Shown: piece by piece, positions 1 to 14,652 of the stretch | Layout: each line of letters begins with the position of its first letter | Numbering within the stretch: position 1 is the stretch's first letter | Assembly (NCBI RefSeq): GCF_024346055.1 | Contig: NZ_JAGQCH010000001.1 | Span: forward strand, 62,001 to 126,000 | Reading direction: 5' to 3' | Source of the DNA: Cyanobium sp. Cruz CV13-4-11 | GTDB lineage: Bacteria > Cyanobacteriota > Cyanobacteriia > PCC-6307 > Cyanobiaceae | DNA: 64,000 nt | Translations under genes and position numbers: made by a program | The notes under the pieces: model-generated | Databases searched by the model: none | Told to the model about the DNA's origin: nothing | The model's input: only the letters and a program-made list of their open reading frames with translations

Positions 1-1471
1 AGGTGGGCAGTGCCCCCAGAAGGGCGTCCACCTCGGCGTTCCAGCCCTTGCCGGCCTGGCTGGTGAGGCGATCGGCGAAGTCGCGGGCCGCTTCGTAGCG
101 CAGGGCGTCGGAGATCACCACAAACAGGCGCTTGAGCCCCTGGGAGCCGAGGGGAGCATGCACATAACGCATGTGGAACTCCTTCTGCCGCGGCAGCACC
201 TCGCTCCCCCAGCTGCTGAGCCCGGCCACCTGATCGCTCCAACGATTGGTGAGCGGCAGCAACACATTGTTGACGTACTGGGCCTCCAACCAATCGCGCA
301 GCGGCTTGAGCAGCCCGGGCTGTTGATAGGCACGGGCGTGGTGGATGCAGCGGCGGTAGGCCTGATCCAGCCGCCACCAGCCGTTGCAGTAGCGCTGCAG
401 GCCCTCCTCGAAGCTGGGCACCTGCAGATCGGCTTTCGCCAGCAGGCTGCGGAAGGTGATGGCCTGCTCGAGGGCGCGATAGCCGTGCTGGTGCTTCTCG
501 AACCAACACGAACTGCTGCGGTTGCGGATCGCCTCCAGCAGGTCGGCGTCTGAGGCGTTGCTCACGAAGCGCTGCAGGAGGCGGCTGAGCACAAAACGCT
601 CGATCAGCTCGTAACTGTCGTCGTCGTCCGGGTCGTAACTGTCGGGCGCATCGTTGAGCTGCTCCTCCACCCGCAGCACGCCGGCAAGGTGGTCACTCCA
701 TGTTTCGAAGGACGGCCGGGCACTGAGGCTGTCCTTCCAGATGCTCTGGAAGACGCGGGCGTGGGGCAGCAGCTCGCCTGAGGGGCCGATGCCGCTGACA
801 CTGTTGAACAGGGCAACGGCGAAGTCGCGCAGGTTGGGCTCAGGGCAGCGGTAGCCGAACTTCTCGCCGACGGCCTGCCAGAAGTGGCGGCTCAGCTGAT
901 GGCTGCCGTAGAGGGCCTCCACGGGGTCATCGGCGTCTGGATTGGCGGGATCCAGCTGGCTGAAGGCGTGCAGCAGCAGCTTGTCGATGTCGGGCGGCTG
1001 CTTGGCCAGCACGGCCAGCATCTTGAGCCGCACGGCCACCTCGTCGTCGTTGGGACGCAGCAGTTCCTTGAGCTTGCTGGTGCGAACCGGTGAGCGGAAG
1101 AAGGCCTTGTGCTGCTGGGCGAGCTCCTTGAACTCCAGCGTTAGTCCGGCGTCCTGGATGTCGAGTGAGGCGCGGTCGGCGGTGAACTCATGGCCGGCCA
1201 GCAGCAGATCCAGGAGCCAGTTCTGGGGCTCTGGTGGTTTGGCGGAGGGGAGGTAGAGGAGGAAGTGTTGGGCGAGGGGGGCGCGGCTGATCGCCACTTT
1301 CACCGAGAACTCGTTGCCCTCTACCCGCAGCTTCTCGGCCGCAGCGGGTTGGTAGCCATCGAACTCCGAGGCCCATTCACCGTTGGCGTCGTACCAGAGC
1401 ACCACGCGCCTGCGGGAGAGCGCGGCGTCGAGGCTTTCGTGGATGCGAGTCGTGGCGGGGGAAGCAGGCAT
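1..1471 (-). CDS. pglZ: BREX type 1 phosphatase-like protein PglZ (3' end outside window)
   Basis: PglZ is an alkaline-phosphatase-superfamily protein required for BREX phage exclusion; its exact substrate is unsettled. The reverse strand is open from the ATG at 1471 to the window edge, giving about 490 N-terminal residues. They begin MPASPATTRIHESLDAAL and continue with the family hallmark VVLWYDANGEW near residues 28-38, then FLLYLP near residue 80. The metal-binding phosphatase core lies further downstream and is not visible. The start overlaps the stop of hipA (ATGA), so translation is probably coupled. Assignment rests on the N-terminal signature plus brxA, brxB, brxC and pglX on the same strand upstream. 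Confidence 0.85.
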   Translation of the reverse strand, partial: MPASPATTRIHESLDAALSRRRVVLWYDANGEWASEFDGYQPAAAEKLRVEGNEFSVKVAISRAPLAQHFLLYLPSAKPPEPQNWLLDLLLAGHEFTADRASLDIQDAGLTLEFKELAQQHKAFFRSPVRTSKLKELLRPNDDEVAVRLKMLAVLAKQPPDIDKLLLHAFSQLDPANPDADDPVEALYGSHQLSRHFWQAVGEKFGYRCPEPNLRDFAVALFNSVSGIGPSGELLPHARVFQSIWKDSLSARPSFETWSDHLAGVLRVEEQLNDAPDSYDPDDDDSYELIERFVLSRLLQRFVSNASDADLLEAIRNRSSSCWFEKHQHGYRALEQAITFRSLLAKADLQVPSFEEGLQRYCNGWWRLDQAYRRCIHHARAYQQPGLLKPLRDWLEAQYVNNVLLPLTNRWSDQVAGLSSWGSEVLPRQKEFHMRYVHAPLGSQGLKRLFVVISDALRYEAARDFADRLTSQAGKGWNAEVDALLGALPT

Positions 1472-2805
1472 CACAGTTGGCATTCGAGCTGGCTGGCGGA
1501 GGCTTGCAGGCCTGTCAGCACGGGTTCGGCGACGGCGTGTGGAAACCCAGCAGGCAACTGGGCCCGCACGGAACCAATCACAGCCGGAGTCTTAGCGATC
1601 AGAGCTTCGAGGATGGCTTGAGCATCAGCAATCCCAAGCCGTTTTGCGGTGAGCAGCATGCGACGACCTGTGATCTCCAGAGGCTTGGTGGAATGGCCTT
1701 GTTCACCAAACCAGGCCATCGCCATCTTGAGCTTTTGCTGGGGCCATTGGCCGCTGCCGCGGCCGATCACCGGCCAGGCCGAGAGCACGTCGTAGAGCGG
1801 TGTGAGCTGAAAGCGGCCGCCCGGGCTCAGAAAGAGGCTGAAGTTTTTGGCGTGGCCATCAATGGCGCGCAGCATCCAGAACAACACCTGCGCCTTGAAA
1901 AAGGTGGCCAGATCGCTGCGCTCGGAGGATTGAGCCAGCAGCTCGGCAATGGGCACCATGCCTGGACCGCCGTTGTTCTCGTATTTGTTGGCGGCTGCTT
2001 TGGAGGTGGCCTGGCAAAAGTCTTCTGTGGGCAGGCGCAGCCAATAGGCGCCACTGGCATGCAGGCGACGATCGAAGCGTTGAACAATCAGGCAGCGCTC
2101 GCCGTCAAAACTGGCTATCTCCGTGGAGGCCACAGGCAACCCATAGGCCTTGAGCACCTTGCTGCAAAGCCACTCGTTCTCCACCGAGGTGCTGAAATCA
2201 ATCTGGCCCTCACCGATCACCCCCATCGGCAGCTTGAACAGGTGGGTGGTGGGGGTACTGCCCAGCGGCAGACACCATTGGTTGTTGTGCCAGAGGAAGG
2301 CGGTCTTCTCCTGGGCACCGGCCACCGAGAGGCGCAGCGCATCGGATTCAGGGCCCAGGGATCCTGGAGCCGGCGCCGCCGTGACGGCGCGCAGGCGCCG
2401 GCCGATCTCCTGGTTGCTCAGGGGCCGGGCCTCGATGCGATCGATGCCGCTGGGCTTCTGGTCTGGCGGCAGCAGCTGCACGGCTCCGGCACAGTCGCGG
2501 CCGACCGCAGCCAGCAGATCGAAGGCATTGGTGCTGGCGGTCTGAAACCGGGTCTGGGCCCTGCCTCGGATGGCGTCGCTGTCCGGGAGGAGGTTGTCAA
2601 ACCAGCTCTCCACGGCATCACCGCTGAGTGTTGAGGTCCCGATGCCCGCCGGCAATGACAACGACACCGGGCGGAACTGGCTGGAATGCAGCCAGGTTTC
2701 GTCGTAAGTGAAGGTCTGTGGCCCCCGCGCCGGCAAGGTCCAGGTGCCGATCCGTTCACCGTTCATCCACACCGCCAGGGAGCGCGCCCGCGTTGGCCTG
2801 CCCAT
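1471..2805 (-). CDS. hipA: HipA family serine/threonine kinase toxin
   Basis: HipA toxins phosphorylate a cellular target (GltX in E. coli) and cause growth arrest; HipB neutralises them. The 444-residue product has an N-terminal HipA subdomain (residues 12-54), the SVAGAQEK nucleotide-binding loop (160-167), VQRFDR (241-246), the catalytic DGHAKN (316-321) and YDV (338-340). All kinase residues I can recognise are present, so it looks active. The ATG at 2805 was chosen over an upstream in-frame start because it overlaps the hipB stop (ATGA) and gives the normal HipA length. It overlaps pglZ in turn, placing a kinase toxin inside the BREX operon. Confidence 0.9.
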   Translation of the reverse strand: MGRPTRARSLAVWMNGERIGTWTLPARGPQTFTYDETWLHSSQFRPVSLSLPAGIGTSTLSGDAVESWFDNLLPDSDAIRGRAQTRFQTASTNAFDLLAAVGRDCAGAVQLLPPDQKPSGIDRIEARPLSNQEIGRRLRAVTAAPAPGSLGPESDALRLSVAGAQEKTAFLWHNNQWCLPLGSTPTTHLFKLPMGVIGEGQIDFSTSVENEWLCSKVLKAYGLPVASTEIASFDGERCLIVQRFDRRLHASGAYWLRLPTEDFCQATSKAAANKYENNGGPGMVPIAELLAQSSERSDLATFFKAQVLFWMLRAIDGHAKNFSLFLSPGGRFQLTPLYDVLSAWPVIGRGSGQWPQQKLKMAMAWFGEQGHSTKPLEITGRRMLLTAKRLGIADAQAILEALIAKTPAVIGSVRAQLPAGFPHAVAEPVLTGLQASASQLECQL

Positions 2806-3059
2806 CACCACTCGGCCGGCTCGATGCTGATCTCTCGGGGCCGCAGCACCAGTTCGAGGTCGAGGGCGGCCAGGATCAACAGCAGACGCTCCACGGTGAG
2901 GCGCCCCGGTTGCAATTCGAGCTGGGAGAGCCTGGCCTGGCTGGTGCCTCCGGCCTTGAGGGCTAGCTCTTGCTGGCTCAGGCCTTTCTGCCGCCGGACA
3001 CCCTTGAGGAGGACCCCCAGCTGGGCAGGGGCGCGGATCACCTGCTCGCCTGCGGCCAT
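2805..3059 (-). CDS. hipB: HipB-like XRE antitoxin
   Basis: An 84-residue DNA-binding antitoxin directly upstream of hipA, overlapping it by ATGA. It carries an XRE helix-turn-helix (GLSQQELALKAGGTSQARLS, about residues 26-45) and a C-terminal strand (LELVLRPREI) of the kind HipB uses for dimerisation. It should repress its own promoter and inactivate HipA. The first seven codons (MAAGEQV) and the upstream region recur at 4119-4200 in a decayed second copy. The family call is firm; regulation is inferred from the family. Confidence 0.88.
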   Translation of the reverse strand: MAAGEQVIRAPAQLGVLLKGVRRQKGLSQQELALKAGGTSQARLSQLELQPGRLTVERLLLILAALDLELVLRPREISIEPAEW

Positions 3060-3120
3060 GACCTACTTGGAATCTCAACAAACGCAGGATAACAGGATTA
3101 CTACTAAGTGGCATTCATTG
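3060..3120 (-). promoter_or_regulatory. hipBA promoter/operator region
   Basis: AT-rich 61 bases immediately upstream of hipB. They contain two closely spaced GGAT elements on the plus strand (GGATAACAGGATTA), resembling the TATCC/GGATA half-sites known for E. coli HipB. The segment aligns visibly with 4140-4200 upstream of the hip remnant, sharing GGAATCT, AAACGCA, AGGATT and GGCATT. Retention in both copies supports a regulatory role. No transcription start can be placed. Confidence 0.45.
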
Positions 3121-3154: not shown

Positions 3155-3583
3155 TCAGGGCGCCGGCCAGGGATTGATCAGTGCCAGGCCAATCCCTTCA
3201 AAATCGACGGTATTGCGGGTGGCAAGGGTGGCTCCAAGGGCCAGGGCGATGGCCGCAATGAGGGCATCAGCCGTTGAAATCGGTTGGCCAAGGCGTTCTC
3301 GCCGCTGGAGCAAGGCGGCATACCAGTGGGCCGCTGGGCGGTCAAAGGAGAAGACACGGCCTGCAAATAGATCTGCCACCAGTTGCTCCCAGCGCGCCTC
3401 CAGGGCCTGGCGGCGTCGACCAACCGGCAAGCGGGCCAGGCCATGCAAGATCTCGGCTTCATCCATGGCCGTGATGCCCACCGCTGCTGGGTCGAGCTGG
3501 TCGGCCCAAGCGAGCACGGCAGGCTGAGGATCCGATCGCATCAGCTCGGAGAGCACGTTGGTGTCGAGCAGAAGCAGAGCCAT
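3155..3583 (-). CDS. FitB/VapC-type PIN-domain toxin (locus 1)
   Basis: PIN-domain ribonuclease toxin of 142 residues. The N-terminal strand and first acidic residue are LLLLDTNVLSE; a second acidic cluster is MDEAEILHG, a third is STADALIAA and the last element is ATRNTVDFEG, so all four PIN positions appear intact. The toxin should cleave RNA unless bound by the antitoxin encoded three bases upstream. FitB and VapC share this fold; the FitA-like partner argues for the FitB branch. It lies between hipB and the hip remnant. Confidence 0.88.
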   Translation of the reverse strand: MALLLLDTNVLSELMRSDPQPAVLAWADQLDPAAVGITAMDEAEILHGLARLPVGRRRQALEARWEQLVADLFAGRVFSFDRPAAHWYAALLQRRERLGQPISTADALIAAIALALGATLATRNTVDFEGIGLALINPWPAP

Positions 3584-3586
3584 GGT

Positions 3587-3841
3587 TCAGCTCAGGGCTG
3601 CAGGTTCAGGCGTGGAGGTGCGGCGTGGCGGTTCGAGCTCCATGCCGCCGAGCTGGGCGAAGTGAGCGCGAATGCGGCTGCCCAGTCCCGGTTCGCTGTA
3701 GGCAGGGGCCGCTGGAGGCGCCAAGGCTGCGGCAAGGATCTGGCGCACCTCCTCTTCCATGGAGCGGCCATGGCCTGCGGCCTGCAGGCGTAGGCGGGAT
3801 TTGAGCTTGTCGTCGAGGTTGCGGATGGTGATCGATGTCAT
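3587..3841 (-). CDS. FitA-type ribbon-helix-helix antitoxin (locus 1)
   Basis: 84-residue antitoxin with an N-terminal ribbon-helix-helix domain (ITIRNLDDKLKSRLRLQA, then RSMEEEVRQIL) and a C-terminal tail that would wrap its PIN partner (LGSRIRAHFAQLGGMELEPP). The ATG at 3841 gives the standard FitA length. The same frame stays open upstream to 4111, joining it to a HipA fragment; that longer form is probably accidental but is a genuine in-frame chimera. The stop is three bases before the toxin start, so the pair is an operon. Confidence 0.85.
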   Translation of the reverse strand: MTSITIRNLDDKLKSRLRLQAAGHGRSMEEEVRQILAAALAPPAAPAYSEPGLGSRIRAHFAQLGGMELEPPRRTSTPEPAALS

Positions 3842-3860
3842 CGGCACGCCTGGCGCGATT

Positions 3861-3885
3861 GCATTGAAATCAATGCTAGCAATGC
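3861..3885 (-). promoter_or_regulatory. Candidate FitA operator, locus 1
   Basis: Three copies of one 6-mer: GCATTG at 3861-3866, its inverse CAATGC at 3871-3876 (a perfect inverted repeat with a 4-base spacer) and CAATGC again at 3880-3885. The 12-mer ATCAATGCTAGC at 3869-3880 also occurs at 13174-13185, upstream of the second fitA in this window. Position and recurrence suggest the autoregulatory site of the ribbon-helix-helix antitoxins. Confidence 0.55.
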
Positions 3886-3982
3886 CTGCATGGCGCAGGC
3901 CAGGTTTCGCCAGATCGGCCAAGACTTCGCACCGGACCGGCCGGGGATTGGCAGAACCACCCTCGTGCAAATGGTGCAGGAG

Positions 3983-4200
3983 GCCAGCCGGCAGTGACAG
4001 CGATAACGGCCGGAACTGACCTGAGTGAAGCCAGGATTCGGCGTAGGTGAAGGTCTGTGGCCCCCGCAACGGCAGGGTCCAGGTGCCGACGCGTTCGCCG
4101 TTCATCCACACCGCCAGTGACCTGCTCGCCTGCGGCCATGTCTCACTCGGAATCTGAATAAACGCAAACTAATAGGATTCCTAGTGATTGGCATTTATTG
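3983..4200 (-). pseudogene. Decayed second copy of hipB-hipA
   Basis: This stretch repeats the hipBA promoter (4140-4200) and the first seven hipB codons (4119-4139, MAAGEQV), then jumps to HipA residues 12-54 (3983-4111). The HipA part matches the intact protein at 36 of 43 residues by direct comparison. About 260 bases, most of hipB and the first hipA codons, are missing at the junction near 4110-4118, and everything after HipA residue 54 is gone. It cannot encode a HipB or a kinase. The HipA piece stays in frame with the FitA antitoxin downstream. It is a tandem duplication or second acquisition that later collapsed. Confidence 0.85.
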
Positions 4201-4224: not shown

Positions 4225-4285
4225 GTATTGCCAAAATGGCCAATACATGACCAGTATTGGCTGGCTGAGGCCCCTTGCCAATACT
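4225..4285 (+). promoter_or_regulatory. Cluster of four alternating GTATTGGC half-sites
   Basis: Half-sites are GTATTGCCA at 4225-4233 (one base shorter than the consensus), TGGCCAATAC at 4237-4246, AGTATTGGC at 4253-4261 and GCCAATACT at 4277-4285. The last two form a perfect 9-base inverted repeat with a 15-base spacer. They end 7 bases before the ATG of the ATPase gene. A possible promoter (TTGATT at 4198-4203, 17 bases, AATTGT at 4221-4226) would be overlapped by the sites, so repression is the likely mode. The binding protein is unknown; the gene's own winged-helix tail is one candidate. Confidence 0.55.
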
Positions 4286-4292
4286 TCGCGCC

Positions 4293-5516
4293 ATGGCGCT
4301 GCCGAGCCTCTGGGGCCTCTACAACCTGCGCTCCTCGCCCTTCTTCCAGGCCACCCTGCGGGCGGATTCGCAGGCCACGCCGCTGCGCCTGTTCGTGGGG
4401 AGGCAGCGGGAGCGGCAGCTGCTGCTCACCACGATCGGCAGCAGCGCCAGCTCCCGCCAGGCGGTGGCGGGGCGTCCAGGAATCGGCAAAACCACCCTGG
4501 TGCAGACGGTGAAGGCCGATGCCCAGGCGGAGGGCTACTGGAGTTCCGACGAGATCATCCCGATCAGCGCCGAGGGCGCCAGTGAACAGCTGCTCGGGCA
4601 GTTGCTTTCTGGTGTGTACGACTCCGTTCTGGCGAACTGCCCGACGGCGGCGGGACCCGAAGTGGAGGCCGCGCAGCAACTGGTGCGGGGCATCCGCCTG
4701 CGTGGGGGCGGGCTCACGGTGTCGGCCTTTGGGCTTGGGGTTGGGGGAAGTCAGAGCGAAAGCGTGGCCACACCGCCAGAGGCGCTGCTGCTGGATGGTC
4801 CGCGGGTATTGCGCGATCTGATGGGCTATGCGATCGGTCAGGGGGCCCGCGGCGTCGTGCTGCACCTCAACAACCTCGAAAACCTCAGTGAGGCGGATGC
4901 GACGCGGGCGGCGGATCTGTTGCGGGGCATCCGCGATCAGGCCCTGCTGCAAGAGGGCTTGCATCTGATCGTGGTGGGCACCCGCTCGGTGTTCAGCAAT
5001 CCGTTGGTGCTGGAGCCACTGGGGCTGGCGGATGTGGAGCAGTTGTTGGCCAATCGCTATGGGTCTTTGCAGCTGGATCCGGCCAGACCCTGCCGATCTC
5101 CTGTGGAGCGTGCCGTGGTGCAGCGGCTGTACGAGCTATTCCGCGGCGATTTGCGCGGCATGTTGAAGGCCCTGGAGGATGGGATCACAGCTCTGCTGGG
5201 GCTCACCAGCGCAGGAGCCGACGTGGCGCCGGTAGGGCTGGAGGATCTGCTGCTCTCGCTTCGGCAACGCAACCAGGTGGAACTGCAGGAGCAGCTGGGC
5301 GACACCGCCTGGGAGCGCCTGCTGGCCTGGGCGCAGGTGGATGCGGCTACGGCCCAGACCCAGGCGGAGCTAGTGGAGCTGTGGCAGGTGAAGCAACCCT
5401 CGGTGTCGCAAACCTTGCAGCAACTGATTGAGGCCGGAGCTGTTGAGGCCTTGCCTCGGCGGGGGCGTGAGGCGATTCAGTACCTGATGACCGGAATATC
5501 GAGGCTGGCATTTTGA
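4293..5516 (+). CDS. AAA-type ATPase with C-terminal winged helix
   Basis: A 407-residue ATPase. Near the N-terminus it has a TniB/ExeA-like segment (LWGLYNLRSSPFF, residues 6-18), then Walker A GRPGIGKTT (60-68) and a Walker B-like GVVLHLNNLENLSE. The last 60 residues read as a winged helix (LVELWQVKQPSVSQTLQQLI). ATG 4293 was preferred to a TTG at 4275 because it starts just before the conserved segment and lies outside the inverted repeat. It is one of three plus-strand genes in the island and is transcribed against the BREX genes. A DNA-binding regulator or defence ATPase is possible; function is not established. Confidence 0.8.
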   Translation: MALPSLWGLYNLRSSPFFQATLRADSQATPLRLFVGRQRERQLLLTTIGSSASSRQAVAGRPGIGKTTLVQTVKADAQAEGYWSSDEIIPISAEGASEQLLGQLLSGVYDSVLANCPTAAGPEVEAAQQLVRGIRLRGGGLTVSAFGLGVGGSQSESVATPPEALLLDGPRVLRDLMGYAIGQGARGVVLHLNNLENLSEADATRAADLLRGIRDQALLQEGLHLIVVGTRSVFSNPLVLEPLGLADVEQLLANRYGSLQLDPARPCRSPVERAVVQRLYELFRGDLRGMLKALEDGITALLGLTSAGADVAPVGLEDLLLSLRQRNQVELQEQLGDTAWERLLAWAQVDAATAQTQAELVELWQVKQPSVSQTLQQLIEAGAVEALPRRGREAIQYLMTGISRLAF

Positions 5517-5548: not shown

Positions 5549-6805
5549 TCACAGAGCACTAGGAATCGTGAGCAGCAGCTCGTTGTTGTCAATGAGGCGG
5601 TAGTGCGGAAGCTGTCCTGACAACTCCAGTGTTCGAGAAAGAATCAAGGGCACACCTTCGCCGCGACGATCCATGATGTAGCGGCGATGGCTGACGCCTG
5701 CAGCAGCCTCTACAGGACAACGCGCAAGCAGGCTGGCGACCAGCTCATTGCGGCAAGCCTGACGGAGCGGCAAGCTTTCAGGAGTCATCGTGTTTGGCAG
5801 CATGCCTGGCGAAAAGATCTCGAGGTGATCATCAAAGAGACGGAGTCTCACCTTGCTGCCGGGGATGGAATAATCGCGATGGGCAACGGCATTGGTGATG
5901 GCTTCGAACACAGCCAGAGCATCAAACTGTGGGCGATCAATCCGGCCTCCCTCCAGCGTCTTCGCGGCACCGCTGCGGCTGTTGCGAGCTACAAACTTGC
6001 AGGCGGCTGTGATCTGTTGATCCAATGGGCCTGTGAGATCGGCAGCGTCACGCTGGTACATGACGTCCTCTCCCAGGGGCGATACCTGGGTACCCGCATA
6101 GGCAACAGCCTGGATGTAAGCGCCCCTCAGGAATGGCTGGGGATTGAGGCTGGCAAGCAACACTCCCGCCACTGAAGGGTGGAGAGATCCGTCTTCCGCT
6201 TCGACCACCAGGCCTGTCTTCGACTGCCAATTTGCATCAGGCGATAACTGAGGGTGAAAACGTTCGAGCAACACGGTATCCAGATCCTCGCATTGAGCAG
6301 ACACAAGCGGCAGCTCATCAAATCGGATCACTCGGCTCTGACTGCGCTGCTGAAAAAGCTGCGCCAGGTAGTCAGGCGGAATAGGGCGCTTTGAGGAACC
6401 GACCCGGTGCAAATAGCCAGCAGGGCTCTGATGTACAAACAGACTGGATGCGATGTCCACTCTGAGGGTGGCGTGATCCACGCCAAGGGAATCGGGCAGC
6501 GTGAGCCGCTCAATCACTGGGGCCAATGGCGGCTTGATGCTGTCCTCAACGGCCTGGCGCACCAGGGCCTCGACGAGATCAAGGCGATCAACAGGGATTC
6601 CCAGGACATCGCGAGTCTTGTCATTGATGCCGAGCAGCAGAGTGCCGCCGGTTCTGCTATTGGCGAAGGCAGCGAGCTCATCAGCCAGGTCGTTTGGGGA
6701 AGGGCCACGCACAGACGCTCCGCAAAAGCGAACCTCTTTGCATCCCAGGAGGTTGTCTTCTCCCAGTCTCAACTTGGCGATCAGTTCATTTCGGCTCAGT
6801 CGCAT
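5549..6805 (-). CDS. AlbA_2 (Schlafen-like) / HATPase_c_4 protein
   Basis: 418-residue protein of the type often annotated as ATP-binding transcriptional regulator. The N-terminal AlbA_2 domain is complete (DLADELAAFANSRTGGTLLL near residues 39-58). The C-terminal half has the GHKL-like block FEAITNAVAHRDY and LFDDHLEIFSPG. The ATG at 6805 has a good ribosome-binding site (GGGAGGTG). The family is frequent in defence islands, with proposed nucleic-acid binding; the precise activity is unknown. It ends convergent with the ATPase gene. Confidence 0.85.
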   Translation of the reverse strand: MRLSRNELIAKLRLGEDNLLGCKEVRFCGASVRGPSPNDLADELAAFANSRTGGTLLLGINDKTRDVLGIPVDRLDLVEALVRQAVEDSIKPPLAPVIERLTLPDSLGVDHATLRVDIASSLFVHQSPAGYLHRVGSSKRPIPPDYLAQLFQQRSQSRVIRFDELPLVSAQCEDLDTVLLERFHPQLSPDANWQSKTGLVVEAEDGSLHPSVAGVLLASLNPQPFLRGAYIQAVAYAGTQVSPLGEDVMYQRDAADLTGPLDQQITAACKFVARNSRSGAAKTLEGGRIDRPQFDALAVFEAITNAVAHRDYSIPGSKVRLRLFDDHLEIFSPGMLPNTMTPESLPLRQACRNELVASLLARCPVEAAAGVSHRRYIMDRRGEGVPLILSRTLELSGQLPHYRLIDNNELLLTIPSAL

Positions 6806-6806
6806 C

Positions 6807-7365
6807 TCACACCTCCCGCCCAAGCCGGGCCCAACGCCGAGCCAGCGCCTGTCGCTGCCGGAAAAGGGCGATCGAGGTTCTCCCACTCCACGGCGAGCAG
6901 GCGAGCAGGCGAGCTACCTCGAACAACTGCTTCAAGGTGGTGGCATCAACAATGCTGGCTTGGCTGCCCTCTCGAATGGCAAACAGGGCTTTGCCTGAGG
7001 GGGGGGGAATGGTCGGCATGGGCAGGGATGGGGATGGCTCCGGCTTCCTGTTCCATCTGTCGGTAGGCAGCCTGCAGAGGATCGATCCAATCGCCACTGT
7101 TGTGATCGGTGATCGCGACGCAGTCCATACCGGCAGCCATGAACTGGCTCAACCAGCGCTCAAGTGTCACCTCTTGATCAGTGCCGTTGGCCTGGTGCCA
7201 GTGGGGGGTATCGGAGGAGGCTGGCGTGTGAGCGTGGAAGTCGAACGACCACCAGCGAGCGCCGAGGTAGGGCCAGGCGGCTGGACTAGGCGTGGCGGCA
7301 AAGGAGGCCACGGGACTGGGCGGGCTGGCGGTGAGCGCGTTTGGATCCGGCATGGCAGTGATCAT
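6807..7365 (-). pseudogene. Decayed PHP-domain (TrlF-like) gene
   Basis: Starts with ATGA overlap on the preceding AlbA_2 gene. The N-terminal part is a clear PHP metal-dependent hydrolase start (SFDFHAHTPASS, then VAITDHNSGDW). Family members are long ATPase fusions; here the sequence jumps from YRQMEQEAG to PIPAHADHS, so most of the domain is lost. A run of nine C on the coding strand (plus-strand G at 6999-7007) then breaks the frame: the current frame stops at 6946, while the next frame continues GKALFAIREGSQASIVDATT and runs to 6807. Removing one C would join them into a 186-residue product. It sits between two AlbA_2 genes, a common pairing. Confidence 0.75.
6999..7007. repeat. Homopolymer run of nine G/C
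   Basis: Nine consecutive G on the plus strand (C on the coding strand) at the point where the PHP gene changes frame. Such tracts gain or lose a base readily by slippage or sequencing error, so the break could be a real mutation, a phase-variable switch or an assembly artefact. Confidence 0.8.
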
Positions 7366-8612
7366 CGCCGCGAATGTCCGAGTCGCCGGTATTTCTGCAG
7401 CCGGCTGTTGGGGGTATCCGGCAAGGTGTAGCCGATCTCGTCTCGATCCAGAAGCTGGCGGATCGTGCGGTTGAGTGCCCCGGAGACGGAATCTCGCCCA
7501 AGGGCATGGGCAATTTCAGACTTGCTCAAGGGCCCGTCGGCCAGGACTTGGAGCACGAAGTGGCCTAGTCCGCCCTCCGCCAGCGACTCTGCCCTTGACT
7601 CTGCCCTTGACTCTGCCCCCCTTGGCCGACTCTGCCCCTGGGCTGGGGAGCTGGCTTGGTCTAGGGGCAGAGTCACTCGAAAACGCAGGCCTACCTCTTC
7701 AAACAGGGGTGGCGGCAGGTGTTGGCTGGCGGCTTCCTCCAGGATCACAGGGATACCACTGCCCCACTGCTCGATCAGGCCGAGTTCGCGGAACACGCGA
7801 CTGATCACGCGATTCCGCAGGCGGCTGATCCCGCGCGGAAGGTCGTCGAGGCTCAGGCCGGGGATCAGCACACCTGGGTTTTCAATTTCGATTCGGTCGT
7901 CGAAGTAGGCAACGCGAATCGGTGCGCCGCGCTGGGAGTAATCGGCATGCACCAGCGCATTGGTGAGGGCTTCCCGCAGGCTGGCCAGGGGAATGCTCCA
8001 GCGATCCACGCGCCGCAGCTCCTGGAAATCGGCCGAACGCACAGCATGCTTCTTGAGGAAGGCCAGAGCTTGCTCCAATGCCTGTGGCAGGGGGGCCTGG
8101 ATGTCGAGCTGATCAAAGATCCCGGCCTTGGTGGTGCCCACAAAACGGGCGCACTGGAGCCAGGCATCGGGAAACCAGCGCTGGCGATCGCGGCCGAAGA
8201 GCAGCATCCCGCCAACGGTGGGAACATCACGGCCCTGAGCGGTGGTAAGCACACGCAGGCTGTGCAGCTCCTGGTCGCTGATCGATCGGATGCCCTCAAA
8301 GGCCGCCGTCATCGCATCGCGATCCAGATCATCGACAGAGAGCTCCGCGATGGGCTGCTCATCAAAGGCTGCGCCACTCACACTGCGGCGCAGCTCCTCG
8401 ATCAAGGCGGAATCAGCCTGGCGATTGGTGGACCCCAGGCGCACGAACACACCCTGGTCAGGGCCTTGCTTGATCAGGTGATGGGGCCTCTGACTGCTGG
8501 GGAACACCTCCACCAGCAGCAGGTTCTTGGGTGATGAGAGATCGCGCTTGCACTCGAAGGTCTTGCCCTCGGGAGTGGTGAGCAACTCGTTAATGGATCT
8601 CTGCATCACCAT
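7362..8612 (-). CDS. AlbA_2 / HATPase_c_4 protein with shortened AlbA_2 domain
   Basis: 416-residue relative of the protein at 5549-6805. The N-terminus reads EGKTFECKRDLSSPKNLL and jumps straight to VEVFPSSQRPHHL; the usual segment between these blocks, containing AFANT..GG and the GI/GV glycine turn, is absent without a frame break. The ATPase half looks complete (LREALTNALVHADYSQRG, YFDDRIEIENPG), as does a C-terminal winged helix (SKSEIAHALGRDSVSGALN). The start overlaps the pglX stop (TAATG), indicating coupling. An ESRAESRAESLAE repeat lies between ATPase and winged helix. The protein may keep ATP binding and DNA binding but lack AlbA_2 activity. Confidence 0.8.
   Translation of the reverse strand: MVMQRSINELLTTPEGKTFECKRDLSSPKNLLLVEVFPSSQRPHHLIKQGPDQGVFVRLGSTNRQADSALIEELRRSVSGAAFDEQPIAELSVDDLDRDAMTAAFEGIRSISDQELHSLRVLTTAQGRDVPTVGGMLLFGRDRQRWFPDAWLQCARFVGTTKAGIFDQLDIQAPLPQALEQALAFLKKHAVRSADFQELRRVDRWSIPLASLREALTNALVHADYSQRGAPIRVAYFDDRIEIENPGVLIPGLSLDDLPRGISRLRNRVISRVFRELGLIEQWGSGIPVILEEAASQHLPPPLFEEVGLRFRVTLPLDQASSPAQGQSRPRGAESRAESRAESLAEGGLGHFVLQVLADGPLSKSEIAHALGRDSVSGALNRTIRQLLDRDEIGYTLPDTPNSRLQKYRRLGHSRR
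7585..7639. repeat. 12-base tandem repeat inside AlbA_2 gene
   Basis: GACTCTGCCCTT occurs at 7585-7596 and 7597-7608, with variant copies at 7609-7620 and, after a short gap, 7628-7639. On the coding strand it encodes the repeated AESR linker between the ATPase and winged-helix parts. Because 12 is a multiple of three, copy-number change would alter linker length without breaking the frame. Confidence 0.85.
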
Positions 8613-11600
8613 TAGTCCTCCTTCGCCGCCAGCCCCGGAATCGGCGCCAGCACGTCCTGGAGCTTGAGGTAGTTCACCTTGACGCCGTCATCGAGATCCA
8701 GCTCGATGCGTTGCTGGGCCAGGGGCAGCAGGGAATCCTGCTCCCAGGCCTGGCAGTCCTTGAGCACCTTGGTGATTTTTTCGGCTTCCTTGCGGGCGGC
8801 GGTGCGGTCGCGGCTGGGGATGGCGTCGTTGAGTTGATCGAGGCCGAGCTGGGCTTGGCGGGCTTCCAGTTTCTGCAGGTAGGGCCGGAAGTAGTTGTTG
8901 AGAACGAGGTTGAGGGTGTCTTTGGTGTAGCGGTGCAGGTAGATCAGGCAGGCGAAGCCACCCTTGGCAGGGCCAGCGGGGCTCTGCACCAGCCAGTAGA
9001 TCGGGCGTTTTTTGTAGGTTTGCAGGTGATCTTTGTAGAAGTCTGTGCAGAAATATTTGCGGAGGTCTTTGCCGAGGGAGGTTTCGATGAAGGCCAGATC
9101 GGTGTTGAGGGAGCTGGCGGGGAAGCAAACGCGCAGGAACTCGCGGCTGCGGGCGACGATGTCGTCTTCAAACCACTCGCCATCGAGCACGGGGATGATG
9201 CCGTCGCGGTCGGGTTGGAAGCTGAGATCGCCAGTGCATTTGCCGACGTTGGCGTCATAGTTTTCTAACGTGTCGCCGGCATTGGCGAGGATCAGGCCGG
9301 GGTGAGCGAGGCTGTAGCGGCCCATCATGCAGCCGGTGGCGTAGGAGAGTAACGCGGCTATGTCCGTCTTTGGGTCGGCGCGGGCGAGGGTGATTTGATC
9401 CTCAGGAACTTCGGGCTGCAACTCGCCGTCTAGGCCATAAGCGGAGATGAAGAGCCTGTTGTTCTCCGTCTCCAGCTCCTGCATCCGGCGGATGGCGGTG
9501 GTGGTCTGCGCTTCCCAATTCCGCCAGCTTGCCTCCAGCGTCGTGTCCTTCAGCCCCGGTCGCAGCAACGGCTGGTCGCGGAAGTCCCAAGAGGTCTCGT
9601 AGTTGTTCCAGTCAACGCGACCAAGCTGAACTAATTCTTGAACCAATCCCGAGTGCATCTCCTCAAGTTTCCCCAGCGGCTTGAACGGAATGCGTGAGAT
9701 GTCGCCTGCTTGAAATTCAATAGTTGGGTTGAGAGCCTTTAACAGGGAGGTGACGAGCTTTGAATTAAGGAGCCCCAATAGTGTTTGCCAATTGGCTTTC
9801 ACGGGGGCCACGAACGAGCCTTTCGCGTCAAAGAGGAATCCAACGGGCGAATAGCGAATAGCGAAATACGAAGAACTAGTCGCTGTGTAAGTCAAAGCCT
9901 CTCTGAAATAGAAATCTCGGCTGCGTGGTGAAGCCCGCCCAGTTGACAGAATTTCTTGGCCGTCGTTTGCCCAGTTCACCACATAGTCTTGATTGCCATA
10001 CCAACGCCGAAAAGGGCCGCCCTTGTTATATGGAAACCATTTGCAGCCTGATGCTGCTGCCAATTTCTGGTTATCAAAGCCAGTGCCAAAACTGGTATTG
10101 GACACTTCATGCCAGAGCCGAAGGAATCGGTCATTCTCTCCAGTTGTCATCCCGCCCCGTACTTTTGCGACATCTTCAACCGGTGGGCAGGTTGAAAACA
10201 CAGTCAGCAACGCATCGTTCAGCCAGTATGCGATTGGACTGCCAGGAATCTTGTAAAAGTTGGCGGCATCGGTGTGGAAGAACCAGCCGCAGTCTGGATT
10301 CTTGATGGCTTCTAATGTTCGCGGGCCTTGGTTTTCGCTACCACGAAAATCAGAGAGGCGAATATAGCCACCTCTATAAAGAGCATGACGTTTATTTTGG
10401 AGCGTGAAGGTGCAAATAGGAACAACAGCCCCGTCGAATCCCGAATATTCTAATTGCACGAGCGTTGAAATCGTTGCCTGGGAAATCAGCCGCTTGCGCA
10501 GTTCTTCGTATGACGAAATGAACATCCATACAAACGGTGACATGAAACCGAGATAGCCATTTGAAAGTGCCAGCGACAGGGATCGGGCGATAAAGGCCGA
10601 GAAAAGATCTGCTTTATAGTCACTAAAGTTGTCTTGAAGAAACTGCTTAATGAGAGGGTTCATCCCTTTCCCGCCCATATACGGCGGATTCGCCACGACG
10701 ACGTGATACCGCTGGGTTAGAGCCTCAGATTGTTCGATAACGCGCAGGACCTTGAGGTGCGTCACGCGCAGAAAGAGCTGGCTACCAAGATCTTTCTGCC
10801 CAATTGAACGTCGGAGTTCGGCGATTGATCGTTCGTCGAGGCACGGCTGGATGAGCGAGCCGAAGGTCTTCGCCTCCTCGAACTGTCGTAGAAGCTTGAG
10901 AAGCGACGGATCAAAGAGCTCGCCTAAATCTAGGGACTGAATATAATCATTTAATTCATTTTTCCCAAATCGTACATCCTGCAGCACAAGAATCTTGGAC
11001 TGCACCAGCTGTGCTGGCTGGAAGAACCGACGCGATTGTTCCCGGGCCTTGAGAACCAAAGCCAGGCCAGCCAACTGGGCAGCGCGGGGGCAAATGTCCA
11101 GCCCATACAGATTGTGCTGCAGGATCAATCTGGGGATTTCAGCCGACGCATAGCCTTCTTCTGTGTAGATGTGGCTGAGCAGGTCAAAGGCATAGGTAAG
11201 CATGTGCCCGCTGCCACAGGCGGGATCCAGCAGTTTGATGTCTTCCGGTTTGTTGATCCGTAGGAAGTCGGTTTCTGTTTCGCCTTCGATGTAGTACGGC
11301 ATCTGGTCTCGCAGCTTCGACTCCGGCCGGTTCAGCAGCCATAGCCGCCCCAGCGAGTTCTCCACGAGATAGCGCACGATCCAGTGGGGCGTGAACAGCT
11401 GGGTGACGGCCGGGATGTCTTCGGTGGGCACCGCCTTCTTGCGGGCCATCACTTCATCTTTCTTTTCGGCGATATAGAACTGATACAGCCAGCCCAGAAT
11501 CTCCACATCCTCGCAATCGCTATCGCTGATCTGGCTGCGGAAACCGCCGGCAATCGAGCCATCACTGAGCAGATCGTCCGGTAACAACAACTCGCTGGCA

Positions 11601-12112
11601 TCATCCAGCCCTTCAAACAGATTCGGCAGCAGCTGGTGATAGGAGCGGCACACCGCCAGGATCAGCTCGCGATACACCTCCCCCTGGGGATCGGCGCCGG
11701 CCGTGGCCGTGGGGATCCGGCCATCGAGCAGGCCCTGCAGGCGCGCCTCATCGGTGTGGGGCTGCAGTTCAGCGGGCAGGCTGCCGCTGCGCAGCAATTT
11801 CAGTAACTCGGGCTGGGTTTCTGTTTCCGTCTGCGGCATCAACACCCTGGCGCCGAAGGGATGCCAAAGCCGGGCATCGAGATAGCGCAGCGCCGCCAGA
11901 CGGTTGAACCAGCTGTAGGCCACCCGCTCCAGCAGCTCCTGGCGATTGGTAGCCTCCTGCTGCCGCAGCTCTGCGATCGGGCCGGCGGCGGTGGTCAGCG
12001 TGTCGGCGCTGGCCTGGTGCAGCAGCAGGTCTAGCTTGCGGCCCAGCGCCTCGATCAGCTGCCGCCGCATCGCCGGGGCGAAGGTTTTGAGGGCGGCGGT
12101 GTTAACGGGCAT
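8612..12112 (-). CDS. pglX: BREX type 1 adenine-specific DNA methyltransferase PglX
   Basis: Site-specific m6A methyltransferase that marks host DNA and is needed for BREX exclusion. The 1,166-residue product has the SAM motif LLDPACGSGHM (about 294-304) and catalytic NPPY (475-478), followed by a long specificity region, as in type II-G/BrxX enzymes. The ATG at 12112 starts MPVNTAALKTFAPAMRRQL, typical of the family; in-frame codons further upstream lie in a low-complexity region. The stop overlaps the next gene (TAATG). Roughly residues 380-840 (9,600-10,980) are clearly AT-richer than the flanks: 29 of 60 bases are G/C at 10381-10440 against 41 of 60 at 12001-12060. That suggests exchange of the recognition region. 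Confidence 0.93.
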   Translation of the reverse strand: MPVNTAALKTFAPAMRRQLIEALGRKLDLLLHQASADTLTTAAGPIAELRQQEATNRQELLERVAYSWFNRLAALRYLDARLWHPFGARVLMPQTETETQPELLKLLRSGSLPAELQPHTDEARLQGLLDGRIPTATAGADPQGEVYRELILAVCRSYHQLLPNLFEGLDDASELLLPDDLLSDGSIAGGFRSQISDSDCEDVEILGWLYQFYIAEKKDEVMARKKAVPTEDIPAVTQLFTPHWIVRYLVENSLGRLWLLNRPESKLRDQMPYYIEGETETDFLRINKPEDIKLLDPACGSGHMLTYAFDLLSHIYTEEGYASAEIPRLILQHNLYGLDICPRAAQLAGLALVLKAREQSRRFFQPAQLVQSKILVLQDVRFGKNELNDYIQSLDLGELFDPSLLKLLRQFEEAKTFGSLIQPCLDERSIAELRRSIGQKDLGSQLFLRVTHLKVLRVIEQSEALTQRYHVVVANPPYMGGKGMNPLIKQFLQDNFSDYKADLFSAFIARSLSLALSNGYLGFMSPFVWMFISSYEELRKRLISQATISTLVQLEYSGFDGAVVPICTFTLQNKRHALYRGGYIRLSDFRGSENQGPRTLEAIKNPDCGWFFHTDAANFYKIPGSPIAYWLNDALLTVFSTCPPVEDVAKVRGGMTTGENDRFLRLWHEVSNTSFGTGFDNQKLAAASGCKWFPYNKGGPFRRWYGNQDYVVNWANDGQEILSTGRASPRSRDFYFREALTYTATSSSYFAIRYSPVGFLFDAKGSFVAPVKANWQTLLGLLNSKLVTSLLKALNPTIEFQAGDISRIPFKPLGKLEEMHSGLVQELVQLGRVDWNNYETSWDFRDQPLLRPGLKDTTLEASWRNWEAQTTTAIRRMQELETENNRLFISAYGLDGELQPEVPEDQITLARADPKTDIAALLSYATGCMMGRYSLAHPGLILANAGDTLENYDANVGKCTGDLSFQPDRDGIIPVLDGEWFEDDIVARSREFLRVCFPASSLNTDLAFIETSLGKDLRKYFCTDFYKDHLQTYKKRPIYWLVQSPAGPAKGGFACLIYLHRYTKDTLNLVLNNYFRPYLQKLEARQAQLGLDQLNDAIPSRDRTAARKEAEKITKVLKDCQAWEQDSLLPLAQQRIELDLDDGVKVNYLKLQDVLAPIPGLAAKED

Positions 12113-12164
12113 GGGGGGGGGACTGTGGAATGAGGGGAAACCTTGTGACGTTGGCCGTGTTGGA

Positions 12165-12497
12165 TTACCCCTCAACAGCAGCGGCGCAGGCATGAAGCCT
12201 CAGGCCAAGAGCCTTGGTCACCTTGAGCACGGTGGCGAAACTTGGATTGCCATCGGCGCTGAGCGCCCGATACAAGCTCTCCCGGCTGAGACCGGTCTCC
12301 TTCGCCACCTGCGTCATTCCCTTGGCTCGGGCGATGTCCCCCAGGGCCCGTGCCAGTCCGCCCACATCATCCGGTGCCTCCTCCAGCCAGGCCTCCAGAT
12401 AGGCCGTCATCTCTTCAGGGGTTCTGAGATGCTCGGCCACGTCGTAGGGCACAAAGCCGGTTGCCGATTCGTTGGCAAGGGGAGGTGTCTGGGTCAT
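12165..12497 (-). CDS. HigA-like addiction-module antidote (orphan)
   Basis: 110-residue XRE-type antitoxin. A helix-turn-helix is visible at GMTQVAKETGLSRESLYRAL (about residues 60-79) followed by GNPSFATVLKVTKALGL, the pattern of the 'probable addiction module antidote' family whose usual partner is a RelE/HigB toxin. No RelE-like gene is adjacent. Instead its start overlaps the stop of a PIN toxin (ATGA at 12494-12497), forming a three-gene fitA-fitB-higA order. It is 52 bases upstream of pglX in the same direction and could influence pglX transcription. Confidence 0.85.
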   Translation of the reverse strand: MTQTPPLANESATGFVPYDVAEHLRTPEEMTAYLEAWLEEAPDDVGGLARALGDIARAKGMTQVAKETGLSRESLYRALSADGNPSFATVLKVTKALGLRLHACAAAVEG

Positions 12498-12931
12498 GGG
12501 GCAGGCTCGGTTGGCCCTCGAAAGGGATTCAGCAAGGCCACGCCCGTGGGCAGAAAATCGGCCGTGTTGCGCGTCACCACCGTGAGGTCATGCAGCAGTG
12601 CGATCGCCGCGATCTGCTTGTCGAGCGCATGTCCGGAATGCGGCACCCGCAGCCGCCCCCAGAGCTGAGCGGCCTCCGCGTCCAGCACCAGGACCCGATC
12701 GCCGTAGGTCTCCAGGAGCACAGCCAGCCACTGCTCCAATGCATCGGCCTGAGCCGCATCGCCTCTGCGGCGGATCAGATCCACGCCACGGCGCAGTTCA
12801 CCGATGGTGATCGACGCCAGATACAACGGCTGGTCTTGGTCGCTGACCGCGCCGAAGAAGGCCCGCACCCCCGGATCAGCCCGTGAACCCTTGCGCGCTT
12901 CGCTGATGACGTTGGTATCAATTAAATACAT
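12494..12931 (-). CDS. FitB/VapC-type PIN-domain toxin (locus 2)
   Basis: 145-residue PIN ribonuclease toxin. Acidic positions are visible in MYLIDTNVISEARKG, ITIGELRRG and ALDKQIAAIAL, followed by VTRNTADF, so the active site appears complete. It overlaps its antitoxin gene upstream by 14 bases and the HigA-like gene downstream by 4 bases. It is a paralogue of the toxin at 3155-3583 in architecture but not a recent duplicate, since most positions differ. Confidence 0.88.
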   Translation of the reverse strand: MYLIDTNVISEARKGSRADPGVRAFFGAVSDQDQPLYLASITIGELRRGVDLIRRRGDAAQADALEQWLAVLLETYGDRVLVLDAEAAQLWGRLRVPHSGHALDKQIAAIALLHDLTVVTRNTADFLPTGVALLNPFRGPTEPAP

Positions 12932-13154
12932 CGGTGTCGGCCGCGGCCTCGCTCTGACGCTCGAAATCTGCGTCGCGCCCTACATCCGGCATGGCGGCCA
13001 GCAGGTCGGCCAGTTTGCGGCGGGGTGGGCTCAACAACGCCGCCTTGAGAATGGCCCGGTGTTCCGCTTCTGAACTGCGGCCATGCTCTCCGGCCTGCTT
13101 TTTCAAGGCTCGCACCAGGGACTCCTCCACGCCTCGCACCAGCAGGTCAGCCAT
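12918..13154 (-). CDS. FitA/VapB-type antitoxin (locus 2)
   Basis: 78-residue antitoxin beginning MADLLVRGVEESLVRALKK, a FitA-type ribbon-helix-helix followed by RSSEAEHRAILKAAL. The ATG at 13154 was chosen because the next upstream candidate (13178) adds eight unconserved residues and would cover the shared operator motif. The C-terminus (LADLLAAMPDVGRDADF) is the expected toxin-wrapping tail. It is divergent from the AbrB-type module at 13280. Confidence 0.85.
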   Translation of the reverse strand: MADLLVRGVEESLVRALKKQAGEHGRSSEAEHRAILKAALLSPPRRKLADLLAAMPDVGRDADFERQSEAAADTDVFN

Positions 13155-13170
13155 GCATGTCCTCCAGGTC

Positions 13171-13185
13171 GCTATCAATGCTAGC
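13171..13185 (-). promoter_or_regulatory. Candidate FitA operator, locus 2
   Basis: GCTATCAATGCTAGC, containing the ATCAATGCTAGC 12-mer also found at 3869-3880. It lies 20 bases upstream of the fitA start. As I recall, the gonococcal FitAB operator is built from TGCTATCA and TGATAGCA; GCTATCA here matches seven bases of that half-site. It sits in the short divergent spacer (13155-13279) and could also affect the plus-strand module. Confidence 0.55.
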
Positions 13186-13279
13186 GGTGCTGGGGGGCTT
13201 GAAGCCCGTCTTCACCAGCTGGCACGAGTCGGCAGCCAACGCGAGTAAGATTCTTACTGGAATTGCCGAGTATCGGTCG

Positions 13280-13519
13280 ATGCGGATCACCAGCAAGGGG
13301 CAGGTCACCATTCCCCAGGAGATCCGCGAGCAGTGTGGCCTGTTGCCCCACACCCAGGTGCGCTTCCTGGTGGAGGGCGGCCGGGTGCTGATCGAAAAGG
13401 CGCCTGCGGAAGGATCGCCCGGCAGCGAAGGCCTGCAACGGCTGCGTCGGGCCCGCTTGCGCACGCGTCTCAGCACCGATGAACTGCTCGCCCTCAGCCG
13501 CGGCGAAGAGCAATCCTGA
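13280..13519 (+). CDS. vapB: AbrB/MazE-type antitoxin VapB
   Basis: 79-residue SpoVT/AbrB swapped-hairpin antitoxin: MRITSKGQVTIPQEIREQCG at the N-terminus, the canonical family signature, then TQVRFLVEGGRVLIEKA. The C-terminal half (RARLRTRLSTDELLALSRG) is the toxin-binding tail. The ATG at 13280 gives the conserved start; upstream codons in frame have no family similarity. It shares one base with the toxin ATG (TGATG at 13517-13521), a coupled VapBC pair. Confidence 0.9.
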   Translation: MRITSKGQVTIPQEIREQCGLLPHTQVRFLVEGGRVLIEKAPAEGSPGSEGLQRLRRARLRTRLSTDELLALSRGEEQS

Positions 13520-13926
13520 TGGTGTTCATGGATTCCAATGTGATCCTCGATGTGATCACAGCTGATCCCCTCTGGCAGGCGTGGAGCGAGGAGCAACTCA
13601 GCCGCTGGCTCGACAGCGGTCCCGTGCTGATCAATCCGATTGTCTATGCCGAGATCGCCTTTGCCTGCGAGGCGATCGAGGCCGTGGATGACCTGCTGCC
13701 GGCCCATCTTTATGCGTACCGTCCCATCCCCCGCGAAGCCGCCTTCCTGGCCGCCCGCGCCCACGCCGAATACCGGGCCCGGGGCGGTTCGCGCCAGACC
13801 GTGCTGGCGGATTTCCTGATCGGCGCCCATGCCCTGGTGGAGCGGGTCCCCCTGCTCACCCGCGACAGGCGCCGCTATCGCCAGGCTTTCCCTGGCCTCG
13901 AGCTGATTGCTCCATCCCCCGCTTGA
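13519..13926 (+). CDS. vapC: VapC PIN-domain toxin
   Basis: 135-residue PIN ribonuclease. MVFMDSNVILDV carries the first acidic residue, VYAEIAFACE the second, and VLADFLIGAHAL with LLTRDRRRY the rest of the active site. It directly follows the AbrB-type antitoxin with a one-base overlap. The gene ends convergent with the next PIN locus, the two stops being separated by one base. Confidence 0.9.
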   Translation: MVFMDSNVILDVITADPLWQAWSEEQLSRWLDSGPVLINPIVYAEIAFACEAIEAVDDLLPAHLYAYRPIPREAAFLAARAHAEYRARGGSRQTVLADFLIGAHALVERVPLLTRDRRRYRQAFPGLELIAPSPA

Positions 13927-13927
13927 T

Positions 13928-14365
13928 TCATCCATCGATTAACCACAGGGCCTCGCGGCCGCCAGCCACCGCCTCGCAGCTCAGGCGGCGATCGAAGCTC
14001 ACCAGCCGCCCGCCGTGGTGCACCGCCAGGGCCAGCAGGTAGGTGTCGGTGAGTTGTCCTGACTCCAGCAGCCGGGAAGCATCGATGCCGATGGGATGGA
14101 GCAGGCTGATCGCATCGGGCCAGAATTGGTGCTGGGGATGGCGGATCAGTTCGGCCACGACGGGCGCCACCACCGCCGGCGGCCCAGGACTGTTGGGGTA
14201 GCGCGGCTGGCCCAGGATCCGCAGCACGGCGTTCTGGGTGAGCGGGCAGGTGGCCCAGCCGTTGGCCTCAGCGGCAGCGAACCAGCCATGGGCCGGCTCG
14301 TGATGGACATGGCGCCGATCCAGCAGGGCGATCAGCACGTTCACATCGAGCAGGGCAACACTCAA
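13928..14365 (-). CDS. PIN-domain toxin of VapBC locus 4
   Basis: 145-residue PIN protein starting at a TTG (14365) that overlaps the antitoxin stop (TTGA). SVALLDVNVLIALLDRRHVH supplies the first acidic residue, the middle has FWPDAISLLH, and DTYLLALAVHHGGRLVSFD the last acidic residues. It resembles the VapC subgroup paired with ribbon-helix-helix VapB proteins. A longer reading frame extends upstream to 14656 but its translation lacks domain character and overlaps the antitoxin, so it was not used. Confidence 0.85.
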   Translation of the reverse strand: MSVALLDVNVLIALLDRRHVHHEPAHGWFAAAEANGWATCPLTQNAVLRILGQPRYPNSPGPPAVVAPVVAELIRHPQHQFWPDAISLLHPIGIDASRLLESGQLTDTYLLALAVHHGGRLVSFDRRLSCEAVAGGREALWLIDG

Positions 14366-14613: not shown

Positions 14614-14652
14614 CTGATGACTCCGCATCAAGCATCAAGTTTAGGCTGAGCG

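Follow-up and report, generated by a model that had tools for sequence, protein, structure and literature searches.

The ATPase gene lies in a BREX-1 island behind a block of four half-sites

The window analysed here, the whole stretch of 64,000 nucleotides from Cyanobium sp. Cruz CV13-4-11, comes from a genome that groups with picocyanobacteria. Inside its BREX-1 island lies, on the plus strand, the gene of a 407-aa AAA_16 ATPase with a C-terminal MarR-like winged helix (P0001; 4293..5516). The minus strand of the island carries, in order, brxA (20271-21239), brxB (19660-20274), brxC (16178-19663), the methyltransferase gene pglX (8612..12193), a HATPase_c_4 gene, a fragment resembling the beginning of the anti-phage model Ppl, and an AlbA/HATPase_c_4 gene; the ATPase gene comes next and, past it and again on the minus strand, an RHH/PIN pair, a hip module, pglZ and brxL. 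The start of pglZ (1..1471, minus strand) runs off the window, with brxL next and outside it (L043). The hip module, which has a HipA match (1471..3114), and the module of a PIN toxin with a FitA-like RHH antitoxin (3155..4111) both lie on the minus strand between pglZ and the block described below. The extra island genes at 5549-8612 and 12494-16110 comprise those of two HATPase_c_4 proteins (one with an AlbA domain), the Ppl-like fragment, two PIN proteins and a DUF234-like ATPase.

Directly before the ATPase gene the window holds GTATTGCCA at 4225-4233, TGGCCAATAC at 4237-4246, AGTATTGGC at 4253-4261 and GCCAATACT at 4277-4285. An earlier note on this DNA had reported these four strings within 4225-4285, the last two as a perfect 9-base inverted repeat just before the start codon; all four are found where it had placed them, and the repeat is indeed perfect and ends 7 bases (4286-4292) before the ATG at 4293. 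The conserved element is a four-half-site block at 4225..4284 on the plus strand, with the layout 8-6-8-7-8-15-8 and half-sites of alternating direction. Half-site 1 (GTATTGCC, 4225..4232, plus strand) is the left homology limit of the ATPase module in comparison with L003, L004, L005, L006 and L008, and forms with half-site 2 (GCCAATAC, 4239..4246, minus strand) HP1, a dyad of 22 nt with outer pairs that covary from copy to copy. Half-site 3 (GTATTGGC, 4254..4261, plus strand) doubles as a -35-like TTGGCT (4258-4263), and half-site 4 (GCCAATAC, 4277..4284, minus strand) overlaps AATACT (4281-4286), a possible -10.

The unusual density that had been claimed for these strings is borne out for their clustering, while the single half-site is not over-represented: GTATTGGC with at most one mismatch has 30 matches in the window versus 26.8 expected. 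None of 200 dinucleotide-preserving shuffles of the 64-kb window held four half-sites (at most one mismatch) within 61 bp, so the density is not due to chance; three exact half-sites occurred in none of the 200 either, the largest cluster being two. The pattern GTATTGGC-N0-40-GCCAATAC has one place only in the whole own genome, and that is the block at 4225-4284, the one block found there.

Two remnants lie left of the block. At 3903..3990 on the plus strand stands the ghost of a second copy, in which a collapsed block, reduced to mutated sites 1-2, is fused with part of an ATPase P-loop; L009 has this ghost too, and L011 and L012 have a collapsed block. The remnant of a second hip module, an N-terminal hipA piece with the hip promoter region, occupies 3980..4200 on the minus strand. 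In L008 the hip promoter region holds a near-perfect GGATTCCCAAT...ATTGGGAATCC palindrome (about 4872-4904), which is possibly the site of a HipB-type antitoxin. L003, L004 and L044 lack the hip and PIN modules, and their pglZ begins 6 nt left of half-site 1, which leaves hardly any DNA other than the block between the divergent start codons of pglZ and the ATPase gene (the pglZ query, from L003, carried six extra codons before the likely start).

Half-sites are conserved before homologous ATPase genes

The block lies upstream of the ATPase in 25 of the 31 distinct full-length genes with upstream DNA read, a set that includes the window's gene and three genes with an in-frame stop. In those 25 it stands 7-9 nt from the ATG, with the block of L050 degenerate. 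The six genes without a block are the most distant homologues, at most 57% identical. The earlier note had looked to homologues for conservation of the repeat, which is what the 25 genes show and the six most distant do not. The ATPase and its block are not tied to BREX: pglZ or pglX occurs in the stretch read for 7 of the 25 block-bearing full-length genes (the window, L003, L004, L007, L008, L044 and L045), and BREX queries had no matches in the stretches of about 20 kb around L050 and L052-L056, nor in L048; several other contigs in this survey are too short to tell.

Conservation is concentrated in the half-sites. In 20 distinct copies before the gene, the half-site columns are 0.88-0.97 conserved, the spacers 0.64-0.78 and the left flank 0.56, and the solo copies and the right copies (those after the gene) described below, pooled, are 0.88-0.96 conserved at the half-sites (16 distinct copies). 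All 54 collected copies fit the 60-nt layout without gaps, and one further copy, L233, needs an extra base; because copies were placed ungapped at model positions, a common layout here means that all copies fit the layout. L233, with an interior of 16 nt, was left out of the interior, conservation and covariation counts. The truncated or degenerate copies L230 and L238 and the partial blocks L034/L060, L011, L012, L323 and L330 were left out of the 60-mer and covariation counts, and alignment A5 omits L046 (a near or exact copy of L008) and L228 (of L227).

Among the copies, the outward extension of the first dyad (sites 1/2) covaries, with 163 of 318 cells Watson-Crick versus 135.3 in permutations (0 of 5000 as high) and 19 double-changed cells versus 10.8 (0 of 500 as high); these permutations ignore relatedness, so the small counts are not probabilities. 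Most of this signal stems from the solo and right copies; it is weak, with a z of 1.2, when only copies before the gene are taken. Half-sites 1 and 4, on the outside, form an 8-bp inverted repeat in which 37 copies have 90.9% of cells paired. Inside the second dyad (sites 3/4), self-complementarity is no higher than in shuffled sequence (mean z -0.08, 36 copies). Two folded forms were rejected: a hairpin of sites 3/4, whose 15-nt interior appeared self-complementary by eye and is not above shuffles, and a nested foldback, whose pairing shows no clear covariation. Since pairings other than the first dyad lack clear covariation and the second interior is unstructured, we read the block as probably dyad-symmetric protein sites first and a folded site second. 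An Rfam search gave one match, far below its gathering score.

The half-sites also contain promoter-like parts. A scan found the pair TTGGCA-17-AATACT on the minus strand (4281 down to 4253; 9 of 12). On the plus strand TTGGCT (4258-4263) and AATACT (4281-4286), 17 nt apart, match at 8 of 12, a pair noticed by eye that lies below the scan threshold; a start from it would fall near the ATG.

Second and solo copies of the block

In nine loci of several genera a second block follows the ATPase gene in the same orientation. In L052-L056, units of about 69% identity, it stands about 8 nt past the stop codon, again in the same orientation; in L301 and, degenerate, in L023 it stands 40-45 nt past the gene, and in L304 and L306 a block follows ATPase fragments. 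The units of the clade of about 90% identity have no second block visible at the 3' ends inspected and none by model search. Left and right copies within a unit agree at the half-sites (0.72-0.97) but not in the spacers (0.21-0.43; seven units), so the half-sites look constrained at both ends.

Solo blocks whose surroundings were sketched lie mostly beside VRR-NUC genes or ATPase relics, in the helicase-purB gap or in a BREX island. The gap between the convergent helicase and purB genes was read in 30 loci: nine, the window's own genome included, have 2-68 nt without a block, two hold a solo block, three hold block-ATPase-block and 16 are arranged otherwise. In the two solo copies from this gap, L223 and L224, the left flank continues to site 1 and is followed by right-copy sequence, so that the exchange falls within the block's left arm. 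Upstream of VRR-NUC the block is present in 10 of 30 loci (two of them partial) and absent in 20, L325 having the block with the ATPase and L323 with a truncated ATPase. This stretch, read in L316-L345 before VRR-NUC in islands with replication-type genes, is hypervariable, its variants being YoeB-like toxin gene ends, other sequence, a solo block, or block and ATPase.

Five loci share the left edge of the ATPase module. Homology to the window starts at 4223-4225 in L003, L004, L005, L006 and L008; the two loci in which it reaches beyond this edge, as far as 4120, are L007 and L010, both with the hip remnant. Several loci have a damaged ATPase gene with the block still present, and ATPase relics occur in L225, L226 and L237. 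In L009, L010, L011 and L012, in BREX or related islands, the ATPase is mostly deleted and parts of block or gene are left, L011 and L012 retaining half-sites 1-2 only. There is no recombinase or transposase gene inside the block-ATPase unit. Comparisons of empty and filled sites at helicase-purB and VRR-NUC established no clean target-site duplication; one site has a 4-nt candidate, read by eye only.

Block and ATPase occur together in the family

A sequence-only block model (R1) has matches in 39 of 197 relatives at E <= 0.01, including genomes without the ATPase. Model R2 matches 43 of 400 family genomes at E <= 1e-4, with 1-3 block places per genome, and finds none in the other 357. The ATPase or a large piece of it (E <= 1e-30) is present in 36 of the 400; named relatives holding the gene are Synechococcus lacustris, Vulcanococcus limneticus and 'Microcystis elabens' FACHB-917. 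Block and ATPase occur together in 27 family genomes versus about 3.9 expected if they were independent, a count that is partly by construction because many of these genomes supplied training copies for R2. Its cleaner part is formed by 15 genomes with a block from which R2 drew no sequence; eight of them hold the ATPase.

The ATPase is missing at E <= 1e-30 from 16 of the 43 block-bearing genomes. A few of these (G001, G036, G120) hold ATPase relics and others, such as G008 and G018, have none that we could find, so that there the block survives although its presumed binder is missing. At E <= 1e-4 no block is matched in nine of the 36 ATPase genomes; four of the nine hold gene fragments only and one a partial block. 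Because IMG/VR viral contigs, phages and plasmids yielded no relatives of the ATPase, a virus- or plasmid-borne origin of the unit was rejected, and no vehicle carrying the unit was found among plasmids, phages and viral contigs. The DNA pattern applied to viral contigs has only 15 fixed bases, and its loci were left out of the analysis.

The winged helix of the ATPase is the most likely binder

In the Pfam searches, AAA_16 is the best match of the ATPase, with a weak match to MarR_2 or a MarR-like winged helix. To BrxC_BrxD (PF10923), P0001 scores exactly at the cut-off (22.2 bits), and 21 of 22 homologues match at E <= 0.01. No PADLOC BREX or NCBIfam BREX model matches P0001 at E <= 0.001, and none of the 22 homologues has a Pfam WYL domain at E <= 0.01, so the protein is not of the wHTH-WYL-WCX kind. 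No solved structure is a significant relative by sequence (best E 0.018), and an AlphaFold2 model built from 6 sequences is unusable (pLDDT 39.6). For a comparison with ORC/Cdc6-type initiators that act at origin repeats, which have an AAA+ domain and a wHTH of that clade, the protein offers AAA_16 and the weak MarR_2 match. In nine pairs dN is 0.041-0.234 and dS 0.258-0.876, which indicates that the ATPase is under purifying selection. P0001 lacks 14 residues that most relatives have after the VVGT motif (L040 has the same gap plus another); the missing residues probably lie near sensor 1, and the window's ATPase may be impaired.

The winged-helix segment KQPSVSQTLQQL (residues 367-378; codons at 5391..5426 on the plus strand, from protein numbering and sequence) would be the recognition helix. 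It is near-identical across 22 block-bearing proteins and different in five of the six block-less ones, the sixth, L315, retaining part of it (the QPAVS motif). We ranked 401 windows by identity within the block-bearing proteins (22) minus identity to the block-less ones (6), and three overlapping windows over KQPSVSQTLQQ and its neighbours rank 1-3; QPSVSQTLQQL has an identity of 0.90 within the block-bearing proteins and 0.35 to the block-less ones, a test that is confounded by descent because clades are compared. L006, L022 and L300, which have an in-frame stop each and count among the 25 block genes, were excluded from the comparison, and L302 duplicates L007, the two records being one contig. 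Apart from the ATPase, no gene constantly adjoins the block in the sketched loci. Because this segment best separates block-bearing from block-less proteins, the ATPase is, by a correlation among related clades, the best candidate, and its winged helix would be the most likely binder of the block.

Discussion

The block before the ATPase gene is a conserved element of four half-sites that recurs at both ends of some ATPase units and alone at sites that are empty or filled in sister genomes. What is it for? The earlier note proposed a cooperative repressor site, perhaps bound by the winged helix of the ATPase itself, and a gene that would stay off until repression is lifted, as during infection. 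Part of this is supported by correlation, as the site is conserved before homologues and the recognition segment tracks the block (22 versus 6 proteins). As a full account it falls short, since the block also occurs after the gene, solo in ATPase-less genomes and beside damaged genes.

In its simplest form the block would be an ordinary autoregulatory operator of the ATPase, with the other copies as decayed leftovers of lost ATPase genes, a reading that we regard as somewhat unlikely. It accounts for the position 7-9 nt before the ATG in 25 genes, for the relics beside several blocks without an intact gene (L225, L226, L237) and for the recognition segment that tracks the block. It leaves two things unexplained, the further block behind the gene in nine loci and the sharing of half-sites alone between left and right copies, and decay sits badly with half-site conservation of 0.88-0.96 in the 16 distinct solo and right copies. 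Moreover, a solo block between two convergent genes has no gene to serve, so an operator alone gives no full account.

A close comparison for a switch of this kind is BrxR, a DNA-binding protein with a winged helix that is likewise encoded in a BREX-1 locus and has a palindromic site just 5' of its own gene that overlaps a predicted promoter; the study of such BREX regulators describes a stem-loop of about 70 bp with a 25-bp pseudo-palindrome (PMC9122589). BrxR differs in being a WYL protein and in having its gene at the head of the BREX transcript, whereas the AAA_16 ATPase is encoded inside the island on the opposite strand; several relatives of the ATPase, furthermore, are not near BREX. 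The ATPase shares an AAA+ domain with a winged helix with the ORC/Cdc6-clade BREX ATPases BrxC and BrxD (PMC12839542), but it is a 407-aa stand-alone gene in an island with its own brxC, and its best Pfam match is AAA_16. The ATPase and its block would thus work most like a self-binding regulator beside BREX, as BrxR does, without being BrxR.

Alternatively, the block could be a small insertion repeat, MITE-like or of another kind, that has promoter activity and was captured by chance by the ATPase gene, the ATPase not being its binder. Like the MITEs and promoter repeats covered by PMC10969869, which reports sigma70-like promoters on Correia repeats, the block is short, intergenic and palindromic, is present or absent at sister sites and has promoter-like parts; its outer half-sites are inverted repeats, and sites 3/4 form the TTGGCn-17-AATACn pair found by the minus-strand scan. 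It differs from those elements in its link to a non-transposase gene and in its few copies per genome. The 1-3 places per genome (E <= 1e-4), the co-occurrence with the ATPase far above chance and the want of an established target duplication make this reading doubtful. A REP element with a Y1 transposase was ruled out, as Y1_Tnp, the transposase family searched for, is absent in all nine genomes searched.

Integron attC sites have the cores R'' RYYYAAC and R' GTTRRRY, and a folded single-strand site for a tyrosine recombinase, comparable to attC, would account for the nested four-half-site layout and for the covarying outward extension of the first dyad. Integron cassettes likewise combine one gene with a palindromic site of four half-sites and, as the unit here apparently is, are gained and lost as a unit. 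In block copies, however, the AAC/GTT cores are absent, the arms are asymmetric (6 and 15 nt), the block lies upstream of its gene and no array is seen; the second-dyad interior is not structured and nested pairing shows no clear covariation. Attention to this reading is drawn by an integron-integrase-like gene above the curated cut-off in 28 of 42 genus genomes (for example G000:C2:543-1481 and G000:C50:330-1262), but across 41 genus genomes the overlap is not persuasive (both 17, block only 4, integrase only 11, neither 9). The seven integrase loci read have no block, no attC array and no attC by strict scan, with one isolated loose-scan candidate (L350), and the attC scan found nothing at the block in the window, L003, L023, L052, L054, L223, L229 and L301. 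Identity with integron attC was ruled out by the absent cores and arrays, and we find the broader comparison improbable. The block-ATPase unit resembles a MITE or an integron cassette in its gain and loss, with some of their defining features missing.

That the block is the operator of a host regulator unrelated to the ATPase is highly improbable: conserved half-sites in ATPase-less genomes would fit, yet 357 of 400 family genomes have no block (E <= 1e-4), the single block of the window's genome is the one before the ATPase, and the sketched solo copies lie largely beside VRR-NUC genes or ATPase relics, in the helicase-purB gap or in a BREX island.

The explanation that we prefer, with about even confidence, is that the block is an array of four sites for the winged helix of the ATPase that serves both as promoter-operator and as terminal repeat of a mobile one-gene unit. 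The comparisons show that the block is conserved in a common layout, stands at both ends of some units and alone elsewhere, is present or absent at sister sites and has a left-arm junction in two solo copies; from them we infer binding by the ATPase, autoregulation and any active role of block or ATPase in movement. The protein that binds the four sites would most likely be the adjacent ATPase, through its winged helix. The block would form the 5' end of a mobile unit of block and ATPase, in several genera with a second block at the 3' end. Next to the gene it would act as promoter-operator and let the ATPase regulate its own expression; in its role as a repeat it would be the point at which gain and loss of the unit take place, with a solo block left behind. 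The block may be a switch and, in addition, the boundary of a mobile unit of one gene. An extended version, in which the ATPase recognises the array at both ends, the array is promoter-operator and exchange point, and the ATPase takes a hand in being gained and lost and brings promoters along into defence islands, is tentative and, on present comparisons, rather unlikely.

We found no published description of the block or the unit in literature titles and abstract openings. An AAA+ winged-helix protein and its array form a testable pair, for which the empty, solo and filled versions of one chromosomal site provide natural controls. If the preferred explanation is true, BREX-type defence islands would be reshuffled and rewired, besides by transposons, by a single-gene unit that carries its own arrays.
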